Below are positions 14,157 through 64,000 of a stretch of 64,000 nt of DNA, piece by piece. The first letter of the stretch is position 1; each line of letters begins with the position of its first letter. The position numbers and the translations under genes are program-made. The stretch spans positions 62,001 through 126,000 of the forward strand of contig VCJN01000489.1 in NCBI GenBank assembly GCA_006384855.1, written 5' to 3'. The notes below the pieces were generated by a model. The model searched no databases and was not told the DNA's origin. It saw only the letters and a program-made list of their open reading frames with translations. Origin of the DNA: Tetraselmis striata. Lineage: Eukaryota > Chlorophyta > Chlorodendrophyceae > Chlorodendrales > Chlorodendraceae.

Positions 14157-14157
14157 T

Positions 14158-21076: not shown

Positions 21077-21193
21077 CACACCTTCCCTCCGCCTTATGCT
21101 TACGCAACATGATTATCATATCCTGTCTGCCAAATACCCCGCCCGCTTTCCTTTACGTATCCCGTAGGGCTACGTTTTTGGGCCGAGATGGAA

Positions 21194-39540: not shown

Positions 39541-39568
39541 TTTAACCATTGTGGGGCCGCATTTGCCA
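39541..39568 (-). repeat. B2 copy of the split direct repeat
   Basis: 28 bp identical to 40041-40068 (TTTAACCATTGTGGGGCCGC plus ATTTGCCA on the plus strand); taken as the 3' end of the element. Confidence 0.75.
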
Positions 39569-39677: not shown

Positions 39678-39953
39678 GCCGCCTTCTTGCCGCCTGCCAT
39701 CGTAGCGTGCGGAAGTGTCGTGGTGCAAGACTAGTCGTCGAAACCGTCGACTCGTAGAGATATTCACACCTTGCACACATACGAGAGGTGCGACGCCGTT
39801 GCGCTAGCTGGTAAGCTGGCGCAAAGGCAGAAGGTGGACTCCCCTCGTGGTGCGGGTGCGTCATGTAGCAGGGCTGTCGCATGCTGTCGCTAGCGCCGCT
39901 GGACATCCGGAAGTCCAAGCGGTACGCGTACTGCGAGTACATGTACTGGTAGC
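39678..39953 (-). repeat. A2 copy of the direct repeat
   Basis: About 276 bp matching 44259-44533 at roughly 92-95% by eye, same orientation. Sequence continues as TAGCATTCAAG on the plus strand, whereas the A1 copy is cut by the gypsy LTR at this point. Confidence 0.9.
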
Positions 39954-40012
39954 TAGCATTCAAGCTAGAATCTTAATTTTACTAGTACCGGTGACAGAAT
40001 AGCCCGGTGTAA

Positions 40013-41305: not shown

Positions 41306-43236
41306 GTGCAGCCATGACGGTATGCCACACGGAAGACACTCACTGCCCATCGCGGCGCTCTGGGCATATCGCGCCCTGCCCTCCGCCCCGGCCGAAAAAG
41401 ATCGCGGCGAGGCAGTACCACGCGCTCCGACACCGCCATCTCGGTAAGTGCATGGTGCCACACCTTGCCCTCCCAGCGAGGGGCCACGACGGTAGCGGCC
41501 GCGCCGCTTTGGCGCAGCTTCTGCACCGGGTCCGGCAGAAGCGGCCAAAGGGGGTTGCAATAGTTGTTCTCGCGACGCCACTCCGCATCGGACAGGTGCA
41601 AGGAGTCCACCGCCTCGCAGCCGGGGTCCAACCACGCAGCGTAGTAGCGTGGTAGCATCGCGTTCATGGCTGATGCGAACCGATCGACGGAGTGCGCACC
41701 CCACGTTGCCTCCATCTCTGCGAACATGACGGGGTCCAGTTGCCAGTCGTCGATGTCGAGGTGTCGGCTCAGTCGATCCGCCCAGACGTTCGCGGCGGAC
41801 CGGATGTAACGGGCTCTGATGTGTACGCTGTTGTTGTCCAGCAGGTACCATAGCTTGCGTAGTTCCGCCATCATCGCCGGAGACCGGGAGGTGAGGCCAG
41901 CAAGGGCGCTGCACACCGCCTGGCTGTCCTCGTGCAGCAACACGCGGCGACCGGCGAGGTGCGGCAGGAAAGACTCCACTGCCAGCCGGACGGCCTTCAT
42001 TTCTTTCCACGTGATGTGCTGGCGCTCGTCGACTGCCCCCCAGAACCCCCGCGCCTCCAGCCTGCCATTCAGCACCGCACCCCAACCGTAGCCGGAGCTG
42101 TCGCAGTGCTTGTAGGCCGTCTCCACATGGCGGTGGATAGGGCGGCCGTTGGCCTGAGTCGGCACGGCGGTCCACCACTGCAGGTCGCGCCGCAGCTGGT
42201 GTGTCATGCGCACTTGGCCGCCCCACTTGGAGCCCACCACGTCGTGGAGCTCCCGCAAGTAGAAGCGCGCGGCCGGGATTGCCAAGAAAAGGTATTGAGC
42301 CCGCCTAGCGAGCGGCTGCAGCTCCCGCACGGGTAGCCAACGGGCGTCGCGGGCCGCGCGCTGCAGCAATTGCTTGGCTTGGCGCGCGAGCCGCTGCGGT
42401 TTGTCCACCGGGGCATAAAAATATCCAGTGGCTGTGTCGATGTCCACCCCCAGGTGCTGGCCGTACTGGACCGGCTCCCATAGCCCTTTGGCGGGGTTGC
42501 GCTGCAGGCCCAGGCTGTCCAGCAAGTCGGCGACGCACGGGCGGAGCTCCAGCGCCTCCGGATCCGACGAGGCGAACAACAAGAAATCGTCGACGTATGG
42601 TAAGATGCGCGCTCCCCTCCACCGCCCGCGGCGCAGCCAGCGGCGCGACCGCGGGACGTTGCCAGGCGCAGCGGGGATAGTCGGAGAGCGTAGGTGCTTG
42701 ACGAACGTCATCATGAACGTCGTGAAGGAGTAAGGGCTGAGCGACCAGCCCATGGGAAGGCCGCACAGCCGGTAGAGGGTCCCGCGGATGTTGACCGTGA
42801 AGTAGTCGCGGTCGGAGGGCGCGATGCCGAGGGCATAGAAGCCGTCTTGCAGGTCGAACGACAACATGTAGTCCCCTTTCGCGGTCAGGTGTCGGACGCC
42901 CATGAGTGTCTCCATCCGTAGTTGCTTGCGCGCGCAGAAGGTGTTGAGCACACGGAGGTTGATGATGAAACGCCACTGGTTGTCGCCGGGCTTCGGAACG
43001 AAGAACGCCCGGGACACCCACCATGCGCACGACGACTTCTCCCACGCGCCGGCCGCCGTAAAGCGTCTTAGTTCGGCGGTGAGGAGCTTGAGTTGGGCAG
43101 GGGTTGCGTCGTCGAACGAGACGCCTTGGTTGGACCTTGGGGGTGGCCGGTTGTAGTGGAAAGGCCATCCCGTATCCAGCTCGTCACTTGCGCGCTCGCG
43201 CCGATGTCTCCGCCTCCGCCTTACGCGGTGACGCAT
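41287..43236 (-). CDS. pol: Reverse transcriptase-RNase H polyprotein with C-terminal methyltransferase-like region
   Basis: About 649 residues from ATG 43236-43234. The frame is open further upstream but overlaps gag there, so an internal start or frameshifting from gag is likely. RT blocks: WRFIINLRVLNTFC, LSFDLQDGFYALG, LCGLPMGWSLSPYSF and catalytic YVDDFLLFAS (about 42575-42604). RNase H: KHCDSSGYGWGAVL, ITWKEMKAVRLAV, LLHEDSQAV and NVWADRLSRH, all acidic positions present. The last 150 residues contain HSVDRFASAMN, YCNPLWPLL and VVAPRW, the arrangement of the Dam-like methyltransferase region of DIRS elements, with the catalytic tetrapeptide changed to NPLW. It ends in TGA overlapping the recombinase start. 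No stop interrupts it. Confidence 0.88.
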   Translation of the reverse strand: MRHRVRRRRRHRRERASDELDTGWPFHYNRPPPRSNQGVSFDDATPAQLKLLTAELRRFTAAGAWEKSSCAWWVSRAFFVPKPGDNQWRFIINLRVLNTFCARKQLRMETLMGVRHLTAKGDYMLSFDLQDGFYALGIAPSDRDYFTVNIRGTLYRLCGLPMGWSLSPYSFTTFMMTFVKHLRSPTIPAAPGNVPRSRRWLRRGRWRGARILPYVDDFLLFASSDPEALELRPCVADLLDSLGLQRNPAKGLWEPVQYGQHLGVDIDTATGYFYAPVDKPQRLARQAKQLLQRAARDARWLPVRELQPLARRAQYLFLAIPAARFYLRELHDVVGSKWGGQVRMTHQLRRDLQWWTAVPTQANGRPIHRHVETAYKHCDSSGYGWGAVLNGRLEARGFWGAVDERQHITWKEMKAVRLAVESFLPHLAGRRVLLHEDSQAVCSALAGLTSRSPAMMAELRKLWYLLDNNSVHIRARYIRSAANVWADRLSRHLDIDDWQLDPVMFAEMEATWGAHSVDRFASAMNAMLPRYYAAWLDPGCEAVDSLHLSDAEWRRENNYCNPLWPLLPDPVQKLRQSGAAATVVAPRWEGKVWHHALTEMAVSERVVLPRRDLFRPGRRAGRDMPRAPRWAVSVFRVAYRHGCTCAADQ

Positions 43237-43282
43237 ATAGTCGGAGTCGGGGCAGCAGCTGTCGGCGCGGCGCGCCACACCG

Positions 43283-44281
43283 TCATTCACGTGTCTTGTC
43301 GCCGGTCCTGCCGCCGTTCTTGTCGCGGTTTTTGGCGTCCGCCTCGCGGCGTTTCTGCTCCCGCGCCGCCTTGTCATTTTTCTTCCGCGCCTTGTTGCTG
43401 TCGGTGTCGCGCTCCGCTGCTTGCCTCTTGAAGGTCGCTGATGCCTGTGCCTTGGTCGCAGCCGCGAGGCCGACCTTGAGGCGCTTGTCCTCGAGCGCTG
43501 CCAGGAGGCCGTCGACGACGTTGGCGGAGCGCTCATGCTCGGCGGTGTCGAAGACTCGGGAGTAGATGAGTCGCTCGGCGACTTGCTCCTCGGGGGTGAG
43601 GGCCTTCTTGGCCTTGAAGCGTCGAAGGTACGTGAGTCTGGCCTCATCCGCGTCGCCCACTGCTTCAAGCGTGCGATGCGCGGCGTCGAGTAGGTCGAGG
43701 GCGTCGACGCGGTCTTGGGTGGGGGTATCGGGCGCGCGAAGCGTAGCCAGAGCTGTCTTAGCCGCCGCGTTAGCGGCGGCGCGGTAGACGCCATAGCACA
43801 TAAGGTGGCGATACTCGTCGCGCGACGCAATCGTGTTGGCCTCAGTGAGGTAGCGGTCGGCCTCGTCGTTACGGGGCCGCCAGAGGCTCGGGCGTGTGGC
43901 GCCCGACGGGGGGGGGGGGGGGGGGGGGCAGTCTTGGTACGCCCGGGGCAAGAGGTCTTCCCATTCCCGAGGGTCGATGAACACGGCCGCGGCGTCGCGC
44001 GCGCCCCCCGTAGCAGCGGCTGTCCGGGCGTCGTGCTCCGGCTCCCTGCCACCCTCGCCGACTTCGTCGTCGTCCGAGGGAATCTCGCGCTGCTCCTTGT
44101 GCTTGTTGTTGTCATGTACGTCCAAGCGGGTCGATAAAGCGTCCACCTTCAACGCCCGCGCTTGCAGTAACGCAAGCGTTGTCGTGTCCCGTGTCGTCTC
44201 TGTCGGCTCCGCGGGCGTTTCGGCCAAACTATCGGCTGGCGTTGCCTTTGTAGGGTCTGCCGCCTTGTTGCCGCCTGCCAT
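43283..44281 (-). CDS. gag: gag-like protein of the PAT/DIRS-like element
   Basis: 332 residues, ATG 44281-44279 (MAGGNKAADPTKATP) to TGA 43285-43283. The start lies within the A1 repeat, and the A2 repeat carries the same start followed by a few codons, supporting it. The N-terminus is Thr/Ala/Glu-rich and acidic, a G21 run on the plus strand encodes Pro residues near 120, the centre is Ala-rich helical (YRHLMCYGVYRAAANAAAKT), and the C-terminus is a Lys/Arg/Asp-rich coil (RKKNDKAAREQKRREADAK) suitable for nucleic-acid binding. No CCHC knuckle, as is usual for DIRS-order gag proteins. Confidence 0.75.
   Translation of the reverse strand: MAGGNKAADPTKATPADSLAETPAEPTETTRDTTTLALLQARALKVDALSTRLDVHDNNKHKEQREIPSDDDEVGEGGREPEHDARTAAATGGARDAAAVFIDPREWEDLLPRAYQDCPPPPPPPSGATRPSLWRPRNDEADRYLTEANTIASRDEYRHLMCYGVYRAAANAAAKTALATLRAPDTPTQDRVDALDLLDAAHRTLEAVGDADEARLTYLRRFKAKKALTPEEQVAERLIYSRVFDTAEHERSANVVDGLLAALEDKRLKVGLAAATKAQASATFKRQAAERDTDSNKARKKNDKAAREQKRREADAKNRDKNGGRTGDKTRE
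43908..43928 (+). repeat. Homopolymer G21
   Basis: Within the gag-like frame, where it encodes Pro on the minus strand. Confidence 0.9.
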
Positions 44282-44533
44282 CGTAGCGTGCGCAAGTGTC
44301 GTGGTGGGAGACTAGTCGTCGAGACCGTCCACTCGTAGAGACATTCACACCTCGCACACCTATGAGAGGTGCGACGCCGTTGCGCTAGCTGGTAAGCTGG
44401 CGCAAATGCAGAAGGTGGACTCCCTCGTGGTGCGGGTGCGTCATGTAGCAGGGCTGTCGCATGCTATCTCTAGCGCCGCTGGACATCCGGATGTCCAAGC
44501 GGTACGCGTACTGCGAGTACAAGTACTGGTAGC
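44259..44533 (-). repeat. A1 copy of the direct repeat
   Basis: About 275 bp matching 39678-39953. It includes the gag start codon and stops at GTAGC exactly where the gypsy LTR begins. Confidence 0.9.
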
Positions 44534-44753
44534 TGTGAGGAAAGGTGCGCGTGGTGGAGAAGGTGAGTGCTATTCCACTGAGTGATGGTGTATGATGATC
44601 TGACTACATGCCGACACGCGCCGTGTCTGATAGATCAGGCGACGCGATGTGGCCGACATGGCGCGGCGCAGCCCGTCATGTGACGGGCGCTCTCTACGCG
44701 CCTATTTAGCTATGGTGATTAGGAATAGTGAGGGTATATGATATATCCTCACA
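44534..44753 (-). repeat. LTR of the array-founding gypsy element (unit 1 copy)
   Basis: On the minus strand it runs from TGTGAGGATATAT at 44753 to CTTTCCTCACA at 44534, with matching inverted ends TGTGAGGA / TCCTCACA. Unit 1 and unit 2 copies differ at only a few bases. In units 4-12 the end reads TCGCA instead of TCACA. Confidence 0.85.
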
Positions 44754-44920
44754 TTCCATCCCGCTCTGATGAATCTGAGTCATCGGATTCACTGTGGAAA
44801 CCGTTGTGGGCGGCTCGCCTTGGCAGCAATGTAAGCTGGCGAGGTCGAGATATGTTTGAAACGTTCAGTCAGCGTAAAATGCTGCATGGGCGGTGAATAC
44901 CGCATCGTTTCATAGGGCAA

Positions 44921-45466
44921 TCAATCATCTCCGGTTGTCGGGAAATTGTGAAACCTTACTTTAAACAGCAAAGTTTTGCCCTTTGCATATAGTCTGGGAT
45001 ATAGTGCCAACTTATTGTCTGTGATGCCCGCAATGATGGGATCATCAGTTCTGCGTGTTTGTCTGCCAATCAAGGCATTATGAATATCCGTTTGCGCGGA
45101 TACAGTGTCCCAGGGTCTCAATTTAGAGACATGAAGTACTGGGTGGCACTCAACCTCAGGTGGTAATTGTATTTTGTAGGCCTGAGGATTCACCCGTTCG
45201 ATGACCTCATATGGTCCTACATATCGTTGTTTGAGCTTGGGACATTTTTGTCCGCGTATAGTAATATCGTCTGTTTTTATCATTATTTTGTCACCGATTT
45301 GAAATGTGATCGGCTGCTTATTGTTTTTATCATGGAAATGCCTTTGGTATTCTTTGACAATTATTATATTTTCATGCACCCGATTGTGGATATCTTGTAT
45401 TTTCAACAGAATGTCTATAGTAGTCTCTCTCACTCCAGTTTTGGGGTTTACAATATCGATTGGCAA
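44921..45466 (-). pseudogene. Gypsy integrase C-terminal module, unit 1
   Basis: About 181 residues: linker, then GDKIMIKTDDITIRG, KLKQRYVGPYEVIERVNPQ and CHPVLHVSKLRPW, the GPY/F-type DNA-binding module. A short tail (LYAKGKTLLFKVRFHNFPT) resembles the first half of a chromodomain but lacks the closing W-E part, then TGA. Equivalent frames: 46678-47223, 50194-50739, 51951-52496, 53704-54249, 55457-56002, 57210-57755 and 58967-59512; broken copies at 48436-48980 and 62511-62995. Confidence 0.85.
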
Positions 45467-45542
45467 CCGAGGATGGAAGCCATATATTGCCTTGAATGGA
45501 GTAAACTTTGTTGTTGACGATTCTGTGTTATTGTAATTGAAC

Positions 45543-45947
45543 TCAGCGAGTGATAGATAGGTAGTTCACCCAGTCCTCCTGGTTATTGTAGCAGAAAGCT
45601 CGCAGCAACCGCTCGATTATTTTGTTCAATATTTCAGTCTGGCCATCGGTCTGCGGATGATAAGCAGTACTGAGGTGTAATGTTGTACCAAGCTGTTTGA
45701 CCAGTTCTTGGAAATATGATGATGTATATTTTGTGTCCCGGTCTCCCACCATACAAGTGCTGAGACCGTGGAGTCTGTATATATTCTTGATGTACAATTG
45801 TGCAAGTTCAGGAGCCGTGATGGCTTTATGGCAGGGTACAAAGTGAGCCTGCTTTGTGGATAAATCCACAAAAGTGGCAATACAATCATAACCATCCACT
45901 AATGGTAAATTCGTGATAAAGTCAAGACTGAAATATTCCCAGGGCAC
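45543..45947 (-). pseudogene. Gypsy integrase core, unit 1
   Basis: The zinc-binding remnant (FFCWPHMHQNMKTYVRNCEV) lies upstream at about 46015-46085. The DDE core has FSLDFITNLP, VGDRDTKYTS and DGQTEILNKIIERLLRAF, so all three acidic residues are present. It ends prematurely after DWVNYLSITR because a 4-bp TATC duplication (minus strand, about 45551-45558) shifts the frame just before the expected LAEFNYNN, which is still encoded in the next frame and leads into the C-terminal module. The same lesion is present in every unit. Equivalent cores: 47300-47704, 49058-49411, 50816-51172, 52573-52929, 54326-54682, 56079-56435, 57832-58188 and 63134-63460; broken at 59659-59947 and 61380-61721. Confidence 0.88.
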
Positions 45948-46290
45948 GGTTGGTGTTGGCAGTGGCTGTAAATTAAGCCGCTGTTGGAGCCTCTGTATGC
46001 TGTTTTGTCAGCTTACAGACTTCACAGTTTCGGACATATGTTTTCATGTTTTGGTGCATGTGCGGCCAGCAAAAAAATCTGTTGATCAACTTCTGAGTTC
46101 TGAGGATACCGTTATGGCTACACCTGCCGGCGCGACATCTTTACGCTTCCACTATGGAAACTGCCAAGATTCACACAGACACTCTACACAAGCGCAATGC
46201 GTTATTGTGATTTATCATGCCGTTTTCTGTGGCGGAAAACTGACACAACGCTTGACTATAAATTTTCGCGGACGCCGTAGAAGCACCAAA

Positions 46291-48048
46291 TGTGAGGAAA
46301 GGTGCGCGTGGTGGAGAAGGTGAGTGCTATTCCACTGAGTGATGGTGCATGATGATCTGACTACATGCCGACACGCGCCGTGTCTGATAGATCAGGCGAC
46401 GCGATGTGGCCGACATGGCGCGGCGCAGCCCGTCATGTGACGGGCGCTCTCTACGCGCCTATTTAGCTATGGTGATTAGGAATAGTGAGGGTATAGGATA
46501 TATCCTCACATTCCACCCCGCTCTGATGAATCTGAGTCATCGGATTCACTGTGGAAACCGTTGTGGGCGGCTCGCCTTGGCAGCAATGTAAGCTGGCGAG
46601 GTCGAGATATGTTTGAAACGTTCAGTCAGCGTAAAATGCTGCATGGGCGGTGAATACCGCATCGTTTCATAGGGCAATCAATCATCTCCGGTTGTCGGGA
46701 AATTGTGAAACCTTACTTTAAACAGCAAAGTTTTGCCCTTTGCATATAGTCTGGGATATAGTGCCAACTTATTGTCTGTGATGCCCGCAATGATGGGATC
46801 ATCAGTTCTGCGTGTTTGTCTGCCAATCAAGGCATTATGAATATCCGTTTGCGCGGATACAGTGTCCCAGGGTCTCAATTTAGAGACATGAAGTACTGGG
46901 TGGCACTCAACCTCAGGTGGTAATTGTATTTTGTAGGCCTGAGGATTCACCCGTTCGATGACCTCATATGGTCCTACATATCGTTGTTTGAGCTTGGGAC
47001 ATTTTTGTCCGCGTATAGTAATATCGTCTGTTTTTATCATTATTTTGTCACCGATTTGAAATGTGATCGGCTGCTTATAGTTTTTATCATGGTAATGCCT
47101 TTGGTATTCTTTGACAATTATTATATTTTCATGCACCCGATTGTGGATATCTTGTATTTTCAACAGAATGTCTATAGTAGTCTCTCTCACTCCAGTTTTG
47201 GGGTTTACAATATCGATTGGCAACCGAGGATGGAAGCCGTATATTGCCTTGAATGGAGTAAACTTTGTTGTTGACGATTCTGTGTTATTGTAATTGAACT
47301 CAGCGAGTGATAGATAGGTAGTTCACCCAGTCCTCCTGGTTATTGTAGCAGAAAGCTCGCAGCAACCGCTCAATTATTTTGTTCAATATTTCAGTCTGGC
47401 CATCGGTCTGCGGATGATAAGCAGTACTGAGGTGTAATGTTGTACCAAGCTGTTTGACCAGTTCTTGGAAATATGATGATGTATATTTTGTGTCCCGGTC
47501 TCCCACCATACAAGTGCTGAGACCGTGGAGTCTGTATATATTCTTGATGTACAATTGTGCCAGTTCAGGAGCCGTGATGGCTTTTATGGCAGGGTACAAA
47601 GTGAGCCTGCTTTGTGATAAATCCACAAAAGTGGCAATACAATCATAACCATCCACTAATGGTAAATTCGTGATAAAGTCAAGACTGAAATATTCCCAGG
47701 GCACGGTTGGTGTTGGCAGTGGCTGTAAATTAAGCCGCTGCTGGAAGCCTCTGTATGCTGTTTTGTCAGCTTACAGACTTCACAGTTTCGGACATATGTT
47801 TTCATGTTTTGGTGCATGTGCGGCCAGCAAAAAAATCTGTTGATCAACTTCTGAGTTCTGAGGATACCGTTATGGCTACACCTGCCGGCGCGACATCTTT
47901 ACGCTTCCACTATGGAAACTGCCAAGATTCACAAAGACACTCTACACAGGCGCAATGCGTTATTGTGATTTATCATGCCGTTTTCTGTGGCGGAAAACTG
48001 ACACAACGCCTGACTATAAATTTTCGCGGACGCCGTAGAAGCACCAAA
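46291..48048 (-). repeat. Array unit 2
   Basis: Like unit 1 (TGTGAGG end, YVGPYEV). The integrase core has two compensating indels around the sequence after FVDLS. Confidence 0.9.
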
Positions 48049-49806
48049 TGTGAGGAAAGGTGCGCGTGGTGGAGAAGGTGAGTGCTATTCCACTGAGTGA
48101 TGGTGCATGATGATCTGACTACATGCCGACACGCGCCGTGTCTGATAGATCAGGCGACGCGATGTGGCCGACATGGCGCGGCGCAGCCCGTCATGTGACG
48201 GGCGCTCTCTACGCGCCTATTTAGCTATGGTGATTAGGAATAGTGAGGGTATAGGATATATCCTCACATTCCACCCCGCTCTGATGAATCTGAGTCATCG
48301 GATTCACTGTGGAAACCGTTGTGGGCGGCTCGCCTTGGCAGCAATGTAAGCTGGCGAGGTCGAGATATGTTTGAAACGTTCAGTCAGCGTAAAATGCTGC
48401 ATGGGCGGTGAATACCGCATCGTTTCATAGGGCAATCAATCATCTCCGGTTGTCGGGAAATTGTGAAACCTTACTTTAAACAGCAAAGTTTTGCCCTTTG
48501 CATATAGTCTGGGATATAGTGCCAACTTATTGTCTGTGATGCCCGCAATGATGGGATCATCAGTTCTGCGTGTTTGTCTGCCAATCAAGGCATTATGAAT
48601 ATCCGTTTGCGCGGATACAGTGTCCCAGGGTCTCAATTTAGAGACATGAAGTACTGGGTGGCACTCAACCTCGGGTGGTAATTGTATTTTGTAGGCCTGA
48701 GGATTCACCCGTTCGATGACCTCATATGGTCCTACATATCGTTGTTTGAGCTTGGGACATTTTTGTCCGCGTATAGTCATATCGTTGTTGTTATCATTAT
48801 TTTGTCACCGATTTGAAATGTGATCGGCTGCTTATTGTTTTTATCATGGTAATGCCTTTGGTATTCTTTGACAATTATTATACTTTCATGCACCAGATTG
48901 TGGATATCTTGTATTTTCAACAGAATGTCTATAGTAGTCTCTCTCACTCCAGTTTTGGGGTTTACAATATCGATTGGCAACCGAGGATGGAAGCCAGTAT
49001 ATTGCCTTGAATGGAGTAAACTTTGTTGTTGACGATTCTGTGTTATTGTAATTGAACTCAGCGAGTGATAGATAGGTAGTTCACCCAGTCCTCCTGGTTA
49101 TTGTAGCAGAAAGCTCGCAGCAACCGCTCAATTATTTTGTTCAATATTTCAGTCTGGCCATCGGTCTGCGGATGATAAGCAGTACTGAGGTGTAATGTTG
49201 TACCAAGCTGTTTGACCAGTTTTTGGAAATATGATGATGTATATTTTGTGTCCCGGTCTCCCACCATACAAGTGCTGAGACCGTGGAGTCTGTATATATT
49301 TTTGAAGTACAATTGTGCCAGTTCATGAGCCGTGATGGCTTTATGGCAGGGTACAAAGTGAGCCTGCTTTGTGAATAAATCCACAAAAAGTGGCAATACA
49401 ATCATAACCATCCACTAATGGTAAATTCGTGATAAAGTCAAGACTGAAATATTCCCATGGTACGGTTGGTGTTGGCAGTGGCTGTAAATTAAGCCGCTGC
49501 TGGAGCCTCTGTATGCTGTTTTGTCAGCTTACAGACTTCACAGTTTCGGACATATGTTTTCATGTTTTGGTGCATGTGCGGCCAGCAAAAAAATATGTTG
49601 ATCAACTTCTGAGTTCTGAGGATACCGTTATGGCTACACCTGCCGGCGCGACATCTTTACGCTTCCACTATGGAAACTGCCAAGATTCACACAGACACTC
49701 TACACAGGCGCAATGCGTCATTGTGATTGATCATGCCGTTTTCTGTGGCGGAAAACTGACACAACGCCTGACTATAAATTTTCGCGGACGCCGTAGAAGC
49801 ACCAAA
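48049..49806 (-). repeat. Array unit 3
   Basis: Transition unit: TGTGAGG end and YVGPYEV kept, but IHNLVHES-type linker as in later units. One indel breaks the C-terminal module near 48780. Confidence 0.9.
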
Positions 49807-51563
49807 TGCGAGGAAAGGTGCGCGTGGTGGAGAAGGTGAGTGCTATTCCACTGAGTGATGGTGCATGATGATCTGACTACATGCCGACACGCGCCGTGTC
49901 TGATAGATCAGGCGACGCGATGTGGCCGACATGGCGCGGCGCAGCCCGTCATGTGACGGGCGCTCTCTACGCGCCTATTTAGCTATGGTGATTAGGAATA
50001 GTGAGGGTATAGGATATATCCTCACATTCCACCCCGCTCTGATGAATCTGAGTCATCGGATTCACTGTGGAAACCGTTGTGGGCGGCTCGCCTTGGCAGT
50101 AATGTAAGCTGGCGAGGTCGAGATATGTTTGAAACGTTCAGTCAGCGTAAAATGCTGCATGGGCGGTGAATACCGCATCGTTTCATAGGGCAATCAATCA
50201 TCTCCGGTTGTCGGGAAATTGTGAAACCTTACTTTAAACAGCAAAGTTTTGCCCTTTGCATATAGTCTGGGATATAGTGCCAACTTATTGTCTGTGATGC
50301 CCGCAATGATGGGATCATCAGTTCTGCGTGTTTGTCTGCCAATCAAGGCATTATGAATATCCGTTTGCGCGGATACAGTGTCCCAGGGTCTCAATTTAGA
50401 GACATGAAGTACTGGGTGGCACTCAACCTCGGGTGGTAATTGTATTTTGTAGGCCTGAGGATTCACCCGTTCGATGACCTCATATTGTCCTACATATCGT
50501 TGTTTGAGCTTGGGACATTTTTGTCCGCGTATAGTCATATCGTTTGTTGTTATCATTATTTTGTCACCGATTTGAAATGTGATCGGCTGCTTATTGTTTT
50601 TATCATGGTAATGCCTTTGGTATTCTTTGACAATTATTATACTTTCATGCACCAGATTGTGGATATCTTGTATTTTCAACTGAATGTCTATAGTAGTCTC
50701 TCTCACTCCAGTTTTGGGGTTTACAATATCGATTGGCAACCGAGGATGGAAGCCATATATTGCCTTGAATGGAGTAAACTTTGTTGTTGACGATTCTGTG
50801 TTATTGTAATTGAACTCAGCGAGTGATAGATAGGTAGTTCACCCAGTCCTCCTGGTTATTGTAGCAGAAAGCTCGCAGCAACCGCTCAATTATTTTGTTC
50901 AATATTTCAGTCTGGCCATCGGTCTGCGGATGATAAGCAGTACTGAGGTGTAATGTTGTACCAAGCTGTTTGACCAGTTTTTGGAAATATGATGATGTAT
51001 ATTTTGTGTCCCGGTCTCCCACCATACAAGTGCTGAGACCGTGGAGTCTGTATATATTTTTGAAGTACAATTGTGCCAGTTCATGAGCCGTGATGGCTTT
51101 ATGGCAGGGTACAAAGTGAGCCTGCTTTGTGAATAAATCCACAAAAGTGGCAATACAATCATAACCATCCACTAATGGTAAATTCGTGATAAAGTCAAGA
51201 CTGAAATATTCCCATGGTACGGTTGGTGTTGGCAGTGGCTGTAAATTAAGCCGCTGCTGGAGCCTCTGTATGCTGTTTTGTCAGCTTACAGACTTCACAG
51301 TTTCGGACATATGTTTTCATGTTTTGGTGCATGTGCGGCCAGCAAAAAAATATGTTGATCAACTTCTGAGTTCTGAGGATACCGTTATGGCTACACCTGC
51401 CGGCGCGACATCTTTACGCTTCCACTATGGAAACTGCCAAGATTCACACAGACACTCTACACAGGCGCAATGCGTCATTGTGATTGATCATGCCGTTTTC
51501 TGTGGCGGAAAACTGACACAACGCCTGACTATAAATTTTCGCGGACGCCGTAGAAGCACCAAA
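49807..51563 (-). repeat. Array unit 4
   Basis: First unit with the TGCGAGG end and YVGQYEV. Shares its variants with unit 8. Confidence 0.9.
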
Positions 51564-53316
51564 TGCGAGGAAAGGTGCGCGTGGTGGAGAAGGTGAGTGC
51601 TATTCCACTGAGTGATGGTGCATGATGATCTGACTACATGCCGACACGCGCCGTGTCTGATAGATCAGGCGACGCGATGTGGCCGACATGGCGCGGCGCA
51701 GCCCGTCATGTGACGGGCGCTCTCTACGCGCCTATTTAGCTATGGTGATTAGGAATAGTGAGGGTATAGGATATATCCTCACATTCCACCCCGCTCTGAT
51801 GAATCTGAGTCATCGGATTCACTGTGGAAACCGTTGTGGGCGGCTCGCCTTGGCAGTAATGTAAGCTGGCGAGGTCGAGATATGTTTGAAACGTTCAGTC
51901 AGCGTAAAATGCTGCATGGGCGGTGAATACCGCATCGTTTCATAGGGCAATCAATCATCTCCGGTTGTCGGGAAATTGTGAAACCTTACTTTAAACAGCA
52001 AAGTTTTGCCCTTTGCATATAGTCTGGGATATAGTGCCAACTTATTGTCTGTGATGCCCGCAATGATGGGATCATCAGTTCTGCGTGTTTGTCTGCCAAT
52101 CAAGGCATTATGAATATCCGTTTGCACGGATACAGTGTCCCAGGGTCTCAATTTAGAGACATGAAGTACTGGGTGGCACTCAACCTCGGGTGGTAATTGT
52201 ATTTTGTAGGCCTGAGGATTCACCCGTTCGATGACCTCATATTGTCCTACATATCGTTGTTTGAGCTTGGGACATTTTTGTCCGCGTATAGTCATATCGT
52301 TTGTTGTTATCATTATTTTGTCACCGATTTGAAATGTGATCGGCTGCTTATTGTTTTTATCATGGTAATGCCTTTGGTATTCTTTGACAATTATTATACT
52401 TTCATGCACCAGATTGTGGATATCTTGTATTTTCAGCTGAATGTCTATAGTAGTCTCTCTCACTCCAGTTTTGGGGTTTACAATATCGATTGGCAACCGA
52501 GGATGGAAGCCATATATTGCCTTGAATGGAGTAAACTTTGTTGTTGACGATTCTGTGTTATTGTAATTGAACTCAGCGAGTGATAGATAGGTAGTTCACC
52601 CAGTCCTCCTGGTTATTGTAGCAGAAAGCTCGCAGCAACCGCTCAATTATTTTGTTCAATATTTCAGTCTGGCCATCGGTCTGCGGATGATAAGCAGTAC
52701 TGAGGTGTAATGTTGTACCAAGCTGTTTGACCAGTTTTTGGAAATATGATGATGTATATTTTGTGTCCCGGTCTCCCACCATACAAGTGCTGAGACCGTG
52801 GAGTCTGTATATATTTTTGAAGTACAATTGTGCCAGTTCATGAGCCGTGATGGCTTTATGGCAGGGTACAAAGTAAGCCTGCTTTGTGAATAAATCCACA
52901 AAAGTGGCAATACAATCATAACCATCCACTAATGGTAAATTCGTGATAAAGTCAAGACTGAAATATTCCCATGGTACGGTTGGTGTTGGCAGTGGCTGTA
53001 AATTAAGCCGCTGTTGGAGCCTCTGTATGCTGTTTTGTCAGCTTACAGACTTCACAGTTTCGGACATATGTTTTCATGTTTTGGTGCATGTGGGGCCAGC
53101 AAAAAAATCTGTTGATCAACTTCTGAGTTCTGAGGATACCGTTATGGCTACACCTGCCGGCGCGACGTCTTTACGCTTCCACTATGGAAACTGCCATGAT
53201 TCACACAGACACTCTACACAGGATGCGTCATTGTGATTGATCATGCCGTTTTCTGTGGCGGAAAACTGACACAACGCCTGACTATAAATTTTCGCGGACG
53301 CCGTAGAAGCACCAAA
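51564..53316 (-). repeat. Array unit 5
   Basis: Carries the TTTGCACGGA variant at 52121 and the AAGTAAGCCT variant at 52871, both repeated in unit 9. 4 bp shorter than unit 4 near 53222. Confidence 0.9.
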
Positions 53317-55069
53317 TGCGAGGAAAGGTGCGCGTGGTGGAGAAGGTGAGTGCTATTCCACTGAGTGATGGTGCATGATGATCTGACTACATGCCGACAC
53401 GCGCCGTGTCTGATAGATCAGGCGACGCGATGTGGCCGACATGGCGCGGCGCAGCCCGTCATGTGACGGGCGCTCTCTACGCGCCTATTTAGCTATGGTG
53501 ATTAGGAATAGTGAGGGTATAGGATATATCCTCACATTCCACCCCGCTCTGATGAATCTGAGTCATCGGATTCACTGTGGAAACCGTTGTGGGCGGCTCG
53601 CCTTGGCAGCAATGTAAGCTGGCGAGGTCGAGATATGTTTGAAACGTTCAGTCAGCGTAAAATGCTGCATGGGCGGTGAATACCGCATGGTTTCATAGGG
53701 CAATCAATCATCTCCGGTTGTCGGGAAATTGTGAAACCTTACTTTAAACAGCAAAGTTTTGCCCTTTGCATATAGTCTGGGATATAGTGCCAACTTATTG
53801 TCTGTGATGCCCGCAATGATGGGATCATCAGTTCTGCGTGTTTGTCTGCCAATCAAGGCATTATGAATATCCGTTTGCGCGGATACAGTGTCCCAGGGTC
53901 TCAATTTAGAGACATGAAGTACTGGGTGGCACTCAACCTCGGGTGGTAATTGTATTTTGTAGGCCTGAGGATTCACCCGTTCGATGACCTCATATTGTCC
54001 TACATATCGTTGTTTGAGCTTGGGACATTTTTGTCCGCGTATAGTCATATCGTTTGTTGTTATCATTATTTTGTCACCGATTTGAAATGTGATCGGCTGC
54101 TTATTGTTTTTATCATGGTAATGCCTTTGGTATTCTTTGACAATTATTATACTTTCATGCACCAGATTGTGGATATCTTGTATTTTCAGCTGAATGTCTA
54201 TAGTAGTCTCTCTCACTCCAGTTTTGGGGTTTACAATATCGATTGGCAACCGAGGATGGAAGCCATATATTGCCTTGAATGGAGTAAACTTTGTTGTTGA
54301 CGATTCTGTGTTATTGTAATTGAACTCAGCGAGTGATAGATAGGTAGTTCACCCAGTCCTCCTGGTTATTGTAGCAGAAAGCTCGCAGCAACCGCTCAAT
54401 TATTTTGTTCAATATTTCAGTCTGGCCATCGGTCTGCGGATGATAAGCAGTACTGAGGTGTAATGTTGTACCAAGCTGTTTGACCAGTTCTTGGAAATAT
54501 GATGATGTATATTTTGTGTCCCGGTCTCCCACCATACAAGTGCTGAGACCGTGGAGTCTGTATATATTTTTGAAGTACAATTGTGCCAGTTCAGGAGCCG
54601 TGATGGCTTTATGGCAGGGTACAAAGTGAGCCTGCTTTGTGAATAAATCCACAAAAGTGGCAATACAATCATAACCATCCACTAATGGTAAATTCGTGAT
54701 AAAGTCAAGACTGAAATATTCCCATGGTACGGTTGGTGTTGGCAGTGGCTGTAAATTAAGCCGCTGCTGGAGCCTCTGTATGCTGTTTTGTCAGCTTACA
54801 GACTTCACAGTTTCGGACATATGTTTTCATGTTTTGGTGCATGTGCGGCCAGCAAAAAAATATGTTGATCAACTTCTGAGTTCTGAGGATACCGTTATGG
54901 CTACACCTGCCGGCGCGACGTCTTTACGCTTCCACTATGGAAACTGCCAAGATTCACACAGACACTCTACACAGGATGCGTCATTGTGATTTATCATGCC
55001 GTTTTCTGTGGCGGAAAACTGACACAACGCCTGACTATAAATTTTCGCGGACGCCGTAGAAGCACCAAA
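53317..55069 (-). repeat. Array unit 6
   Basis: 1,753 bp, the 4-bp shorter leader form; C-terminal module intact at 53704-54249. Confidence 0.9.
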
Positions 55070-56822
55070 TGCGAGGAAAGGTGCGCGTGGTGGAGAAGGT
55101 GAGTGCTATTCCACTGAGTGATGGTGCAGGATGATCTGACTACATGCCGACACGCGCCGTGTCTGATAGATCAGGCGACGCGATGTGGCCGACATGGCGC
55201 GGCGCAGCCCGTCATGTGACGGGCGCTCTCTACGCGCCTATTTAGCTATGGTGATTAGGAATAGTGAGGGTATAGGATATATCCTCACATTCCACCCCGC
55301 TCTGATGAATCTGAGTCATCGGATTCACTGTGGAAACCGTTGTGGGCGGCTAGCCTTGGCAGCAATGTAAGTTGGCGAGGTCGAGATATGTTTGAAACGT
55401 TCAGTCAGCGTAAAATGCTGCATGGGCGGTGAATACCGCATCGTTTCATAGGGCAGTCAATCATCTCCGGTTGTCGGGAAATTGTGAAACCTTACTTTAA
55501 ACAGCAAAGTTTTGCCCTTTGCATATAGTCTGGGATATAGTGCCAACTTATTGTCTGTGATGCCCGCAATGATGGGATCATCAGTTCTGCGTGTTTGTCT
55601 GCCAATCAAGGCATTATGAATATCCGTTTGCGCGGATACAGTGTCCCAGGGTCTCAATTTAGAGACATGAAGTACTGGGTGGCACTCAACCTCGGGTGGT
55701 AATTGTATTTTGTAGGCCTGAGGATTCACCCGTTCGATGACCTCATATTGTCCTACATATCGTTGTTTGAGCTTGGGACATTTTTGTCCGCGTATAGTCA
55801 TATCGTTTGTTGTTATCATTATTTTGTCACCGATTTGAAATGTGATCGGCTGCTTATTGTTTTTATCATGGTAATGCCTTTGGTATTCTTTGACAATTAT
55901 TATATTTTCATGCACCAGATTGTGGATATCTTGTATTTTCAACCGAATGTCTATAGTAGTCTCTCTCACTCCAGTTTTGGGGTTTACAATATCGATTGGC
56001 AACCGAGGATGGAAGCCATATATTGCCTTGAATGGAGTAAACTTTGTTGTTGACGATTCTGTGTTATTGTAATTGAACTCAGCGAGTGATAGATAGGTAG
56101 TTCACCCAGTCCTCATGGTTATTGTAGCAGAAAGCTCGCAGCAACCGCTCAATTATTTTGTTCAATATTTCAGTCTGGCCATCGGTCTGCGGATGATAAG
56201 CAGTACTGAGGTGTAATGTTGTACCAAGCTGTTTGACCAGTTCTTGGAAATATGATGATGTATATTTTGTGTCCCGGTCTCCCACCATACAAGTGCTGAG
56301 ACCGTGGAGTCTGTATATATTCTTGATGTACAATTGTGCCAGTTCATGAGCCGTGATGGCTTTATGGCAGGGTACAAAGTGAGCCTGCTTTGTGAATAAA
56401 TCCACAAAAGTGGCAATACAATCATAACCATCCACTAATGGTAAATTCGTGATAAAGTCAAGACTGAAATATTCCCATGGTACGGTTGGTGTTGGCAGTG
56501 GCTGTAAATTAAGCCGCTGCTGGAGCCTCTGTATGCTGTTTTGTCAGCTTACAGACTTCACAGTTTCGGACATATGTTTTCATGTTTTGGTGCATGTGGG
56601 GCCAGCAAAAAAATCTGTTGATCAACTTCTGAGTTCTGAGGATACCGTTATGGCTACACCTGCCGGCGCGACGTCTTTACGCTTCCACTATGGAAACTGC
56701 CATGATTCACACATACACTCTACACAGGATGCGTCATTGTGATTGATCATGCCGTTTTCTGTGGCGGAAAACTGACACAACGCCTGACTATAAATTTTCG
56801 CGGACGCCGTAGAAGCACCAAA
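55070..56822 (-). repeat. Array unit 7
   Basis: 1,753 bp; has the CACACATACACTC variant near 56709 that reappears in unit 11. Confidence 0.9.
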
Positions 56823-58579
56823 TGCGAGGAAAGGTGCGCGTGGTGGAGAAGGTGAGTGCTATTCCACTGAGTGATGGTGCATGATGATCTGACTACATGC
56901 CGACACGCGCCGTGTCTGATAGATCAGGCGACGCGATGTGGCCGACATGGCGCGGCGCAGCCCGTCATGTGACGGGCGCTCTCTACGCGCCTATTTAGCT
57001 ATGGTGATTAGGAATAGTGAGGGTATAGGATATATCCTCACATTCCACCCCGCTCTGATGAATCTGAGTCATCGGATTCACTGTGGAAACCGTTGTGGGC
57101 GGCTCGCCTTGGCAGCAATGTAAGCTGGCGAGGTCGAGATATGTTTGAAACGTTCAGTCAGCGTAAAATGCTGCATGGGCGGTGAATACCGCATCGTTTC
57201 ATAGGGCAATCAATCATCTCCGGTTGTCGGGAAATTGTGAAACCTTACTTTAAACAGCAAAGTTTTGCCCTTTGCATGTAGTCTGGGATATAGTGCCAAC
57301 TTATTGTCTGTGATGCCCGCAATGATGGGATCATCAGTTCTGCGTGTTTGTCTGCCAATCAAGGCATTATGAATATCCGTTTGCGCGGATACAGTGTCCC
57401 AGGGTCTCAATTTAGAGACATGAAGTACTGGGTGGCACTCAACCTCGGGTGGTAATTGTATTTTGTAGGCCTGAGGATTCACCCGTTCGATGACCTCATA
57501 TTGTCCTACATATCGTTGTTTGAGCTTGGGACATTTTTGTCCGCGTATAGTCATATCGTTTGTTGTTATCATTATTTTGTCACCGATTTGAAATGTGATC
57601 GGCTGCTTATTGTTTTTATCATGGTAATGCCTTTGGTATTCTTTGACAATTATTATACTTTCATGCACCAGATTGTGGATATCTTGTATTTTCAACTGAA
57701 TGTCTATAGTAGTCTCTCTCACTCCAGTTTTGGGGTTTACAATATCGATTGGCAACCGAGGATGGAAGCCATATATTGCCTTGAATGGAGTAAACTTTGT
57801 TGTTGACGATTCTGTGTTATTGTAATTGAACTCAGCGAGTGATAGATAGGTAGTTCACCCAGTCCTCCTGGTTATTGTAGCAGAAAGCTCGCAGCAACCG
57901 CTCAATTATTTTGTTCAATATTTCAGTCTGGCCATCGGTCTGCGGATGATAAGCAGTACTGAGGTGTAATGTTGTACCAAGCTGTTTGACCAGTTTTTGG
58001 AAATATGATGATGTATATTTTGTGTCCCGGTCTCCCACCATACAAGTGCTGAGACCGTGGAGTCTGTATATATTTTTGAAGTACAATTGTGCCAGTTCAT
58101 GAGCCGTGATGGCTTTATGGCAGGGTACAAAGTGAGCCTGCTTTGTGAATAAATCCACAAAAGTGGCAATACAATCATAACCATCCACTAATGGTAAATT
58201 CGTGATAAAGTCAAGACTGAAATATTCCCATGGTACGGTTGGTGTTGGCAGTGGCTGTAAATTAAGCCGCTGCTGGAGCCTCTGTATGCTGTTTTGTCAG
58301 CTTACAGACTTCACAGTTTCGGACATATGTTTTCATGTTTTGGTGCATGTGCGGCCAGCAAAAAAATATGTTGATCAACTTCTGAGTTCTGAGGATACCG
58401 TTATGGCTACACCTGCCGGCGCGACATCTTTACGCTTCCACTATGGAAACTGCCAAGATTCACACAGACACTCTACACAGGCGCAATGCGTCATTGTGAT
58501 TGATCATGCCGTTTTCTGTGGCGGAAAACTGACACAACGCCTGACTATAAATTTTCGCGGACGCCGTAGAAGCACCAAA
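56823..58579 (-). repeat. Array unit 8
   Basis: 1,757 bp; variant pattern of unit 4, 7,016 bp downstream of it. Confidence 0.9.
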
Positions 58580-60338
58580 TGCGAGGAAAGGTGCGCGTGG
58601 TGGAGAAGGTGAGTGCTATTCCACTGAGTGATGGTGCATGATGATCTGACTACATGCCGACACGCGCCGTGTCTGATAGATCAGGCGACGCGATGTGGCC
58701 GACATGGCGCGGCGCAGCCCGTCATGTGACGGGCGCTCTCTACGCGCCTATTTAGCTATGGTGATTAGGAATAGTGAGGGTATAGGATATATCCTCACAT
58801 TCCACCCCGCTCTGATGAATCTGAGTCATCGGATTCACTGTGGAAACCGTTGTGGGCGGCTCGCCTTGGCAGTAATGTAAGCTGGCGAGGTCGAGATATG
58901 TTTGAAACGTTCAGTCAGCGTAAAATGCTGCATGGGCGGTGAATACCGCATCGTTTCATAGGGCAATCAATCATCTCCGGTTGTCGGGAAATTGTGAAAC
59001 CTTACTTTAAACAGCAAAGTTTTGCCCTTTGCATATAGTCTGGGATATAGTGCCAACTTATTGTCTGTGATGCCCGCAATGATGGGATCATCAGTTCTGC
59101 GTGTTTGTCTGCCAATCAAGGCATTATGAATATCCGTTTGCACGGATACAGTGTCCCAGGGTCTCAATTTAGAGACATGAAGTACTGGGTGGCACTCAAC
59201 CTCGGGTGGTAATTGTATTTTGTAGGCCTGAGGATTCACCCGTTCGATGACCTCATATTGTCCTACATATCGTTGTTTGAGCTTGGGACATTTTTGTCCG
59301 CGTATAGTCATATCGTTTGTTGTTATCATTATTTTGTCACCGATTTGAAATGTGATCGGCTGCTTATTGTTTTTATCATGGTAATGCCTTTGGTATTCTT
59401 TGACAATTATTATACTTTCATGCACCAGATTGTGGATATCTTGTATTTTCAGCTGAATGTCTATAGTAGTCTCTCTCACTCCAGTTTTGGGGTTTACAAT
59501 ATCGATTGGCAACCGAGGATGGAAGCCATATATTGCCTTGAATGGAGTAAACTTTGTTGTTGACGATTCTGTGTTATTGTAATTGAACTCAGCGAGTGAT
59601 AGATAGGTAGTTCACCCAGTCCTCCTGGTTATTGTAGCAGAAAGCTCGCAGCAACCGCTCAATTATTTTGTTTCAATATTTCAGTCTGGCCATCGGTCTG
59701 CGGATGATAAGCAGTACTGAGGTGTAATGTTGTACCAAGCTGTTTGACCAGTTTTTGGAAATATGATGATGTATATTTTTGTGTCCCGGTCTCCCACCAT
59801 ACAAGTGCTGAGACCGTGGAGTCTGTATATATTTTTGAAGTACAATTGTGCCAGTTCATGAGCCGTGATGGCTTTATGGCAGGGTACAAAGTAAGCCTGC
59901 TTTGTGAATAAATCCACAAAAGTGGCAATACAATCATAACCATCCACTAATGGTAAATTCGTGATAAAGTCAAGACTGAAATATTCCCATGGTACGGTTG
60001 GTGTTGGCAGTGGCTGTAAATTAAGCCGCTGCTGGAGCCTCTGTATGCTGTTTTGTCAGCTTACAGACTTCACAGTTTTCGACATATGTTTTCATGTTTT
60101 GGTGCATGTGCGGCCAGCAAAAAAATCTGTTGATCAACTTCTGAGTTCTGAGGATACCGTTATGGCTACACCTGCCGGCGCGACATCTTTACGCTTCCAC
60201 TATGGAAACTGCCAAGATTCACACAGACACTCTACACAGGGCAATGCGTCATTGTGATTGATCATGCCGTTTTCTGTGGCGGAAAACTGACACAACGCCT
60301 GACTATAAATTTTCGCGGACGCCGTAGAAGCACCAAAT
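58580..60338 (-). repeat. Array unit 9
   Basis: Variant pattern of unit 5 at 7,016-bp offset. Single-base indels begin near 59670. Confidence 0.9.
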
Positions 60339-62120
60339 GCGAGGAAAGGTGCGCGTGGTGGAGAAGGTGAGTGCTATTCCACTGAGTGATGGTGCATGAT
60401 GATCTGACTACATGCCGACACGCGCCGTGTCTGATAGATCAGGCGACGCGATGTGGGCCGACCATGGCGCGGCGCAGCCCGTCATGTGACGGGCGCTCTC
60501 TACGCGCCTATTTAGCTATGGTGATTAGGAATAGTGAGGGTATAGGATATATCCTCACATTCCACCCCGCTCTGATGAATCTGAGTCATCGGATTCACTG
60601 TGGAAACCGTTGTGGGCGGCTCGCCTTGGCAGCAATGTAAGCTGGCGAGGTCGAGATATGTTTGGAAACGTTTCAGTCAGCGTAAAATGCTGCATGGGCG
60701 GTGAATACCGCATCGTTTCATAGGGCAATCAATTCATCTCCGGTTGTCGGAGAATTGTGAAACCTTACTTTTAAACAGCAAAGTTTTGCCCTTTGCATAT
60801 AGTCTGGGATATAGTGCCAACTTATTGTCTGTGATGCCCGCAATGATGGGATCATCAGTTCTGCGTGTTTGTCTGCCAATCAAGGCATTATGAATATCCG
60901 TTTTGCGCGGATACAGTGTCCCAGGGTCTCAATTTAGAGACATGAAGTACTGGGTGGCACTCAACCTCGGGTGGTATTGTATTTTGTAGGCCTGAGGATT
61001 CACCCGTTCGATGACCTCATATTGTCCTACATATCGTTGTTTGAGCTTGGGACATTTTTTGTCCGGTATAGTCATATCGTTTGTTGTTATCATTATTTGT
61101 CACCGATTTGAAATGTGATCGGCTGCTTATTGTTTTTATCATGGTAATGCCTTTGGTATTCTTTGACAATTATTATACTTTCATGCACCAAGATTGTGGA
61201 TATCTTGTATTTTCAAGCTGAAATGTCTATAGTAGTCTCTCTCACTCCAGTTTGGGGTTTACCAATTAATCGATTGGCAACGAGGATGGAAGCCATATAT
61301 TGCCTTGAATGGAGTAAAACTTTGTTGTTGACGATTCTGTGTTATTGTAATTGAACTCAGCGAGTGATAGATAGGTAGTTCACCCAGTCCTCCTGGTTAT
61401 TGTAGCAGAAAAGCTCGCAGCAAACCGCTCAATTATTTTGTTCAATATTTCAGTCTGCCATCGGTCTGGCGGATGATAAGCAGTACTGAGGACTGTAATG
61501 TTGTACCAAGCTGTTTGACCAGTTCTTTGGAAAATATGATGATGTAATATTTTGTGTCCCGGTCTCCCACATACAAGTGCTGAGACCGTGGAGTCTGTAT
61601 ATATTTTTGAAGTACCAATTTGTGCCAGTTCATGAGCCGTGATGGCTTTATGGCAGGGTACAAAGTGAGCCTGCTTTGTGAATAAATCCACAAAAGTGGC
61701 AATACAATCATAACCATCCACTAATGGTAAATTCGTGATAAAGTCAAGACTGAAATATTCCCATGGTACGGTTGGTGTTGGCAGTGGCTGTAAATTAAGC
61801 CGCTGTTGGAGCCTCTGTATGCTGTTTTGTCAGCTTACAGACTTCACAGTTTTCGACATATGTTTTCATGTTTTGGTGCATGTGGGCCAGCAAAAAAAAT
61901 CTGTTGATCAACTTCTGAGTTCTGAGGATACCGTTATGGCTACACCTGCCGGCGCGACGTCTTTACGCTTCCACTATGGAAACTGCCAAGATTCACACAG
62001 ACACTCTACACCAGGATGCGTCATTGTGAATTGATATGCCGTTTTTCTGCTGGCGGAAAACTGACACCAACGCGGCTGAACTATTAAAGTCCTTTCCGCG
62101 GACGCCGTAGAAGCACCAAA
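60339..62120 (-). repeat. Array unit 10, indel-rich
   Basis: 1,782 bp because of many one-base insertions and deletions, mostly in or beside short homopolymers; all frames are broken. Confidence 0.85.
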
Positions 62121-63892
62121 TGCGAGGAAAGGTGCGCGTGGTGGAGAAGGTGAGTGCTATTCCACTGAGTGATGGTGCATGATGATCTGACTACATGCCG
62201 ACACGCGCCGTGTCTGATAGATCAGGCGACGCGATGTGGCCGACATGGCGCGGCGCAGCCCGTCATGTGACGGGCGCTCTCTACGCGCCTATTTAGCTAT
62301 GGTGATTAGGAATAGTGAGGGTATAGGATATATCCTCACAATTCCCCGCCGTCTGATGAATCTGAGTCATCGGATTCACTGTGAAACACCGTTGTGGGGC
62401 GGCTCGCCTTGGCAGCAATGTAAGCTGGCGAGGTTCGAGATATGTTTGAAACGTTCAGTCAGCGTAAAATGCTGCATGGGCGGTGAATACCGCATCGTTT
62501 CATAGGGCAATCAATCATCTCCGGTTGTCGGGAAATTGTGAAACCTTACTTTAAACAGCAAAGTTTTGCCCTTTGCATATAGTCTGGGATATAGTGCCAA
62601 CTTATTGTCTGTGATGCCCGCAATGATGGGATCATCAGTTCTGCGTGTTTGTCTGCCAATCAAGGCATTAATGAATATCCGTTTGCGCGGATACAGTGTC
62701 CAGGGTCTCAATTTAGAGACATGAAGTACTGGGTGGCACTCAACCTCGGGTGGTAATTGTATTTTGTAGGCTGAGGATTCACCCGTTCGATGACCTCATA
62801 TTGTCCTACATATCGTTGTTTGAGCTTGGGACATTTTTGTCCGCGTATAGTCATATCGTTTGTTGTTATCATTATTTTGTCACCGATTTGAAATGTGATC
62901 GGCTGCTTATTGTTTTTATCATGGTAATGCTTTGGTATTCTTTGACAATTATTAATACTTTCATGCACCAGATTGTGGATATCTTGTATTTTCAAGCTGA
63001 ATGTCTTATAGTAGTCTCTCTCACTCCAGTTTTGGGGTTTACAATATCGATTGGCAACCGAGGATGGAAGCCATATATTGCCTTGAATGGAGTAAACTTT
63101 GTTGTTGACGATTCTGTGTTATTGTAATTGAACTCAGCGAGTGATAGATAGGTAGTTCACCCAGTCCTCCTGGTTATTGTAGCAGAAAGCTCGCAGCAAC
63201 CGCTCAATTATTTTGTTCAATATTTCAGTCTGGCCATCGGTCTGCGGATGATAAGCAGTACTGAGGTGTAATGTTGTACCAAGCTGTTTGACCAGTTCTT
63301 GGAAATATGATGATGTATATTTTGTGTCCCGGTCTCCCACCATACAAGTGCTGAGACCGTGGAGTCTGTATATATTTTTGAAGTACAATTGTGCCAGTTC
63401 ATGAGCCGTGATGGCTTTATGGCAGGGTACAAAGTGAGCCTGCTTTGTGAATAAATCCACAAAAGTGGCAATACAATCAAACCATCCACTAATGGTAAAT
63501 TCGTGATAAAGTCAAGACTGAAATATTCCCATGTACGGTTGGTGTTGGCAGTGGCTGTAAATTAAGCCGCTGCTGGAGCCTCTGTATGCTGTTTTGTCAG
63601 CTTACAGACTTCACAGTTTCGGACATATGTTTTCATGTTTTGGTGCATGTGGGGCCAGCAAAAAATCTGTTGATCAACTTCTGAGTTCTGAGGATACCGT
63701 TATGGCTACACCTGCCGGCGCGACGTCTTTACGCTTCCACTACGACTGTAAGACTATGATTCACAAGACTCATGATTCACACATACACTCTACACAGGAT
63801 GCGTCATTGTGATTGATCATGCCGTTTTCTGTGGCGGAAAACTGACACAACGCCTGACTATAAATTTTCGCGGACGCCGTAGAAGCACCAAA
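62121..63892 (-). repeat. Array unit 11, indel-rich
   Basis: 1,772 bp. Fewer indels than unit 10; it also has an apparent local duplication near 63740-63785 and the unit 7 CACACATACACTC variant. Confidence 0.85.
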
Positions 63893-64000
63893 TGCGAGGA
63901 AAGGTGCGCGTGGTGGAGAAGGTGAGTGCTATTCCACTGAGTGATGGTGCATGATGATCTGACTACATGCCGACACGCGCCGTGTCTGATAGATCAGGCG
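63893..64000 (-). repeat. Array unit 12, cut by the window end
   Basis: 108 bp of LTR sequence, TGCGAGG form. Confidence 0.9.

Follow-up and report, generated by a model that had tools for sequence, protein, structure and literature searches.

In a 64,000-nucleotide stretch of the green alga Tetraselmis striata (contig VCJN01000489.1 of assembly GCA_006384855.1; hereafter the window, G000:C385:62001-126000), a tandem array of an internally deleted Ty3/gypsy retrotransposon begins at position 44534, with a single long terminal repeat (LTR) per unit. The array probably arose from one deleted gypsy copy that inserted into the terminal repeat of another retroelement, was amplified by unequal exchange and was then homogenised. 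At this one locus, an LTR retrotransposon is caught in its transition from a mobile element to a tandem repeat: the edge of the insertion can be seen, along with edge units that have diverged, a core that has been homogenised and a block copied over a distance of four units.

The array occupies the rest of the window (44534..64000, minus strand) and reaches the end of the contig at position 129587, 3,587 bp beyond the window, so that the contig stops inside the array; the assembly comprises 224 Mb in 2,903 contigs. At its start the GC content drops from 0.66 to about 0.45. The in-window part contains 11 complete units (starts at 44534, 46291, 48049, 49807, 51564, 53317, 55070, 56823, 58580, 60338, and 62121), all on the minus strand, and a twelfth (start at 63893) is cut off after 108 bp; on the whole contig, 13 complete head-to-tail units are followed by 184 bp of a fourteenth. 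These values bear out an earlier note on this DNA, which had placed the start at 44534, exactly where the LTR begins, and had counted at least 11 head-to-tail copies. The lengths of units 1–7 are 1757, 1758, 1758, 1757, 1753, 1753, and 1753 bp, those of units 8–13 1757, 1758, 1783, 1772, 1758, and 1753 bp. The unit range of 1,753–1,758 bp given in that note therefore applies to 11 of the 13 units, with units 10 (1783 bp) and 11 (1772 bp) outside it. Likewise, the few differences that it had described between neighbours are found among units 1–9 (4–18 substitutions), but not in the pairs 9/10, 10/11, 11/12, and 12/13 (62, 72, 40, and 46 substitutions). At an identity of 98.1–99.9% over 1.75 kb among units 1–9, chance is no explanation for the repeats.

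Read in the sense of the element, which lies on the minus strand, each unit consists of a motif resembling a primer-binding site (PBS), a leader of approximately 150 bp, integrase sequence, a purine-rich tract, and a 220-bp LTR with TG..CA ends. Every unit passes from its LTR to the leader without interruption. The claims of one LTR per unit and of no target duplications between units thus stand, as nothing intervenes that could be such a duplication. The outermost LTR (44534..44753, minus strand, 220 bp) has the ends TGTGAGGA / TCCTCACA and forms the left edge of the array. In unit 5, taken as an example (51564..53316, minus strand, 1753 bp), the LTR (51564..51783, 220 bp) is adjoined by the purine-rich tract AGAGCGGGGTGGAA (51784..51797, element sense), which may represent the polypurine tract. 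The C-terminal part of the integrase (SH3_Tf2-1, 51951..52496) was recognized by a profile match with an E value of 1.1e-17, the integrase core (rve, 52573..52929) with an E value of 3.1e-07 at 31.0 bits, below the Pfam cut-off of 32.6. The zinc-binding domain (H2C2, 53006..53146, E 2.2e-11) covers profile positions 20–58 of 59, its first third being absent. It is followed by the junction that the deletion created between integrase and leader (53132..53161, located by a 30-bp pattern in a genome-wide search), by the leader (53149..53296), a segment of which is also present, inverted, in the 3' part of other family copies, and by the 18-base PBS-like motif TGGTGCTTCTACGGCGTC (53297..53314, element sense), which lies two bases from the LTR and is exact in 13 of 13 units. 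All of these features are on the minus strand.

The integrase remnant retained in each unit amounts to about 1.2 kb. Its coding sequence in unit 5 is divided among three frames and meets a stop shortly before the end. With a tolerance of one difference, the three break sites recur in all 13 complete units; their exact sequences occur in 13, 13, and 11 units, respectively. The integrase of the array units is thus dead. The description of the integrase as truncated was loose: the start of the zinc-binding domain is indeed gone, whereas the remainder is not truncated but disrupted, by two breaks of the frame and one stop. Among the open reading frames (ORFs) of the unit that were tested, none belonged to the gag, protease, reverse transcriptase (RT), or ribonuclease H (RNase H) families, as the note had said of the gag-to-RNase H part, and five further ORFs in and around unit 5 matched no family at an E value of 0.01. 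Two patterns for a tRNA matching the PBS-like motif gave 0 matches each in the assembly, ARAGORN reported 0 tRNA genes in the window and 16 loci, and an Rfam scan of the window returned 0 families.

The array lies within the right-hand repeat of a host retroelement (39678..44533, minus strand), which has direct repeats at 39678-39954 and 44259-44534. The host element encodes an RT (41287-44115) and a tyrosine-recombinase-like protein (40013-42226); the latter gave weak profile matches only, and no PDB chain matched it. The best matches of the host RT protein were proteins labelled Tetstr1 (the top one with 90% identity over 62% of the query), a label that we take to denote the T. striata genome of the Joint Genome Institute (JGI). 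Beside the 277-bp repeats of the host element, a 28-base repeat occurs at 39541-39568 and 40041-40068, 500 bp apart, and the pair resembles the split direct repeats of PAT-like elements. For the end of the host element, the best 40 of 929 candidates were scored, one of which was the window itself. Of the other 39 scored places, 33 align up to 44534 and six stop 1–9 bases short of it, and all four host relatives that were fetched continue for approximately 95 bp past this position, as does the host's own left repeat. The relatives read GGT(A/C)GCTAGCATTC, the window reads GGTAGC followed by the TGTGAGG of the LTR. The left edge of the array is thus an intact LTR terminus at an insertion point inside the host element, which is what a junction made by an integrase would show.

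The assignment of the units to the gypsy LTR retrotransposons, already made in the earlier note, is borne out by the H2C2, rve (sub-cut-off), and SH3_Tf2-1 domains of a Ty3-type integrase, and the integrase of one dispersed relative (L019) matches Ty3 Gag-Pol in the PDB with an E value of 1.4e-28. Dispersed relatives were sampled as 98 matches from the best 39 of 668 first-look candidates, a list that includes no match on the contig of the array (C385). One of them, L017, measures about 8.7 kb and has two LTRs that agree with each other over 175 bp; among its tested ORFs, protease, RNase H, zinc-binding domain, and integrase core (the core under its cut-off) follow the gypsy order, and two ORFs from its gag region had no family match. 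A tree and distances were calculated for units 1–9 and 13 relatives, omitting units 10–13 for their indels, L001–L006 as the same places as L010–L014 and L019, L016 and L017 for their split match, and L050–L053 as rearranged or partial. Units 1–9 are at most 1.8% apart versus 8.2% to the nearest of the 13 sampled relatives, and the branch between the two groups has a support of 1.000. The 30-bp pattern of the deletion junction, with up to three mismatches allowed, had 13 matches in the whole assembly. Since all 13 lie in the array, the array occupies a single locus in this assembly and descends from one founder, in which deletion and inactivation preceded multiplication at this one place. A dispersed founder sharing the deletion was not found by this assembly-wide search.

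The differences among the units point to exchange within the array. Units 1–9 have 25 informative sites; 79 of the 300 pairs of sites show all four combinations, which requires at least seven breaks, and six of the seven intervals lie wholly outside the LTR. A block of 2,394 bp (50263..52656) is repeated identically at 57279-59672, 7,016 bp or four units away; otherwise, units 3–9 differ by 2–20 substitutions. Between the edge units 1 and 2 and units 4–9 there are 21–33 substitutions, and at 8 of the 13 polarised sites that separate them the edge units keep the state of the relatives. Unequal exchange and conversion are the favoured source of this pattern, given the mosaic variants, the block copy at a distance of four units, and the divergence of the edge units. 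Of the mechanisms offered in the earlier note, exchange thus gains from the distribution of variants, while rolling-circle amplification was not shown and is a less probable candidate.

According to the course of events that we propose, a Ty3/gypsy element would have lost the region from gag to RNase H, probably via a misdirected strand transfer. The shortened LTR-leader-integrase-LTR copy, with its own integrase dead, would then have integrated into the terminal repeat of the host element, presumably with the help of an integrase supplied by an intact relative. The number of units would have risen by unequal exchange, between two LTRs first and between whole units later; the simplest first step would be an exchange involving both LTRs of a single insertion, and the first extra unit is more readily ascribed to it than to a ready-made concatemer. 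Ongoing exchange and gene conversion would homogenise the interior of the array and leave the edge units behind. The array would require no function of its own.

Several observations weigh against this proposal. A canonical single insertion would show a right LTR end, a short GGTAGC copy, and then TAGCATTC, but two patterns for the right end of the array had 0 matches each in the assembly, and no target duplication was seen. Elsewhere in the assembly, the deleted element was found neither as a single unit nor in a form with two LTRs; therefore, the founder step is unseen. Units 1 and 2 are not simply ancestral, since 5 of the 13 separating sites show a new state in them. The identical 2,394-bp block may also reflect an assembly error, and a concatemer that was inserted and then underwent exchange would look much alike.

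The strongest alternative is that a ready-made concatemer, either the rolling-circle product of a one-LTR circle or a read-through cDNA with several LTRs, was inserted once and later changed by mutation and conversion. It would account for every unit being in register with one LTR; one-LTR circles and tandem transcripts are discussed as sources of tandem insertions (PMC11899658), and tandem transcripts have been reported for Cassandra (PMC7215508). Even differences between the units would be expected from such a start, whereas what is observed is similarity in nested groups, divergence at the edge, and a block copied four units away; as these may be later changes, they count only weakly against it. 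Because the right end of the array was not found, the insertion of a concatemer stays in play, and we regard it as a credible but clearly less probable origin than unequal exchange. In a wider form, a one-step concatemer would belong to a general route by which mobile elements are turned into tandem arrays in this alga. This proposal stems from a second tandem element inside one flanking repeat pair: at L019:1071-5456 (C1612), a gypsy LTR contains three head-to-tail copies, 99.9% alike and with a period of about 1,521 bp, of an element that has terminal inverted repeats of 17 bp, and TAT flanks the whole block on both sides. We consider such a general route doubtful.

Somewhat less likely still is an assembly artefact, in which the number of repeats was inflated or scrambled and the true locus has one or a few units. 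It is suggested by the contig end inside the array, by the block that recurs without a difference, and by the distribution of indels: counted against the majority of units 3–9, there are 16 events in units 1–9 and 64 in units 10–13, and units 10 and 11 carry scrambled patches. The indel-rich part (60338..64000) continues to the contig end. A four-unit tail of this kind is, however, what one or few unpolished long reads would leave, and units 10–13 look like such a contig end; this reading comes from the indel pattern, as the consulted papers on Tetraselmis do not say how the assembly was sequenced. Variants peculiar to single units, in unit-specific combinations, are present in units 1–9 (38 two-state sites in the compared part), and the array shows the junction from the leader to the next LTR at 13 places. 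Neither the exact unit count nor the variants of units 10–13 should be taken as reliable.

The earlier note had called the array a satellite. As one block of a genome-wide or centromeric satellite, it would be expected to be long and homogeneous, which it is, and it may be longer than seen, as the contig ends within it; but 13 of the 13 matches to the deletion junction in this assembly are in this one array, and genome-wide abundance was not found. The designation is thus not upheld and this origin appears very unlikely, though the verdict is not final because the assembly may lack satellite blocks. Terminal-repeat retrotransposons in miniature (TRIMs) are short non-autonomous LTR elements that have no coding remnant and form a dispersed family; the unit of the array keeps about 1.2 kb of integrase and its deleted form was found only here. 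On the evidence here, the array is neither a satellite nor a TRIM. Independent neighbouring insertions of the same element, for which the many dispersed copies of the family might speak, can practically be dismissed, as there is no second LTR, flanking DNA, or target duplication between units and the deleted form is not dispersed.

A possible origin of the internal deletion was deduced from related rearranged copies. The junction of LTR and PBS-like motif had 16 matches in the assembly, 13 in the array and the others in C275, C890, and C2860, the last known only from a short locus in a BLAST search. What comes after the LTR and this same 18-base motif differs among three places: the array continues with its leader, C275 with RNase H/integrase sequence, and C890 with another leader. 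In C275 (L050), the motif is joined directly to the RNase H/integrase sequence, which amounts to a different internal deletion; C890 (L053) is rearranged: an internal block is inverted, and LTRs stand head to head at a distance of about 150 bp. A search with the leader segment gave 42 candidates, of which 40 were scored (13 in the array, 27 elsewhere); the segment was mapped in detail in L015–L017, C275, and C890 only. In L015 (C1238), L016 (C1127), and L017 (C1193), the 3' part of the integrase region contains a 160-bp segment of the leader in inverted orientation; the inverted copy of L017 shares the last seven bases of the motif. A strand transfer that landed wrongly during reverse transcription would explain these joins. 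This stays a suggestion because L017's own motif agrees with that of the array in the first 12 bases only and no tRNA matching the motif was found. The integrase coding region of the two-LTR copy L017 is also broken by a TATGA-type simple repeat of approximately 150 bp (L017:1385-1540), and C275 has a longer simple repeat at the same kind of place.

The array is of a kind already known and is no new kind of system. LTR retrotransposons arranged in tandem with shared LTRs have been reported from rice, and a pipeline detects them in Arabidopsis, almond, and cotton as well; the causes under discussion are illegitimate recombination, tandem transcripts, and one-LTR circles (PMC11899658). Like the array, these insertions have head-to-tail internal regions with shared LTRs; they are read as one insertion, are often gypsy elements, and one lies inside another transposon (PMC11899658). 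In the array, too, internal regions in a row share LTRs with no target duplications between them, and it appears to have the structure of a tandem LTR insertion, known here from the left edge only. The two plant loci described in that report have at most two internal regions, three LTRs, and target duplications on both sides (PMC11899658), whereas the array has 13 units of an internally deleted element in a green alga, with the left edge alone seen. A phenomenon that the reports cited here document in land plants, with reference to cases in animals, is thereby extended to Tetraselmis.

Tandem arrays of the TRIM Cassandra likewise share LTRs, and unequal exchange or template switching was proposed for them; Cassandra is a dispersed family with a 5S sequence in the LTR and without a coding remnant (PMC7215508), unlike the array unit with about 1.2 kb of dead integrase at one locus only. 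The maize repeats CRM1TR and CRM4TR are, like the array, locally homogenised tandem repeats from a Ty3/gypsy element, for which gene conversion, unequal exchange, and rolling circles are discussed (PMC3648361). Their units are formed by part of the LTR and untranslated region and are (peri)centromeric (PMC3648361), whereas the unit of the array contains the whole LTR, leader, and integrase. The Ogre-derived satellites of Lathyrus similarly grew from a Ty3/gypsy element into tandem repeats, but from short repeats in its 3' region and not as LTR-bounded units (PMC7004042).

Other repeats were observed in the window and in the sampled contigs. At 13719-21493, direct repeats of 300 bp (97% identity) lie 7,475 bp apart, each with the 11-bp minisatellite ATGCTTGCCAC, and an ORF between them has the integrase domains H2C2 and rve, representing another gypsy element. 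At 26569-27532, a 481-bp sequence is present in two tandem copies that are 99% alike, and at L014:336-2811 (C544), approximately four tandem copies of a repeat of roughly 600 bp are located near the start of the contig.

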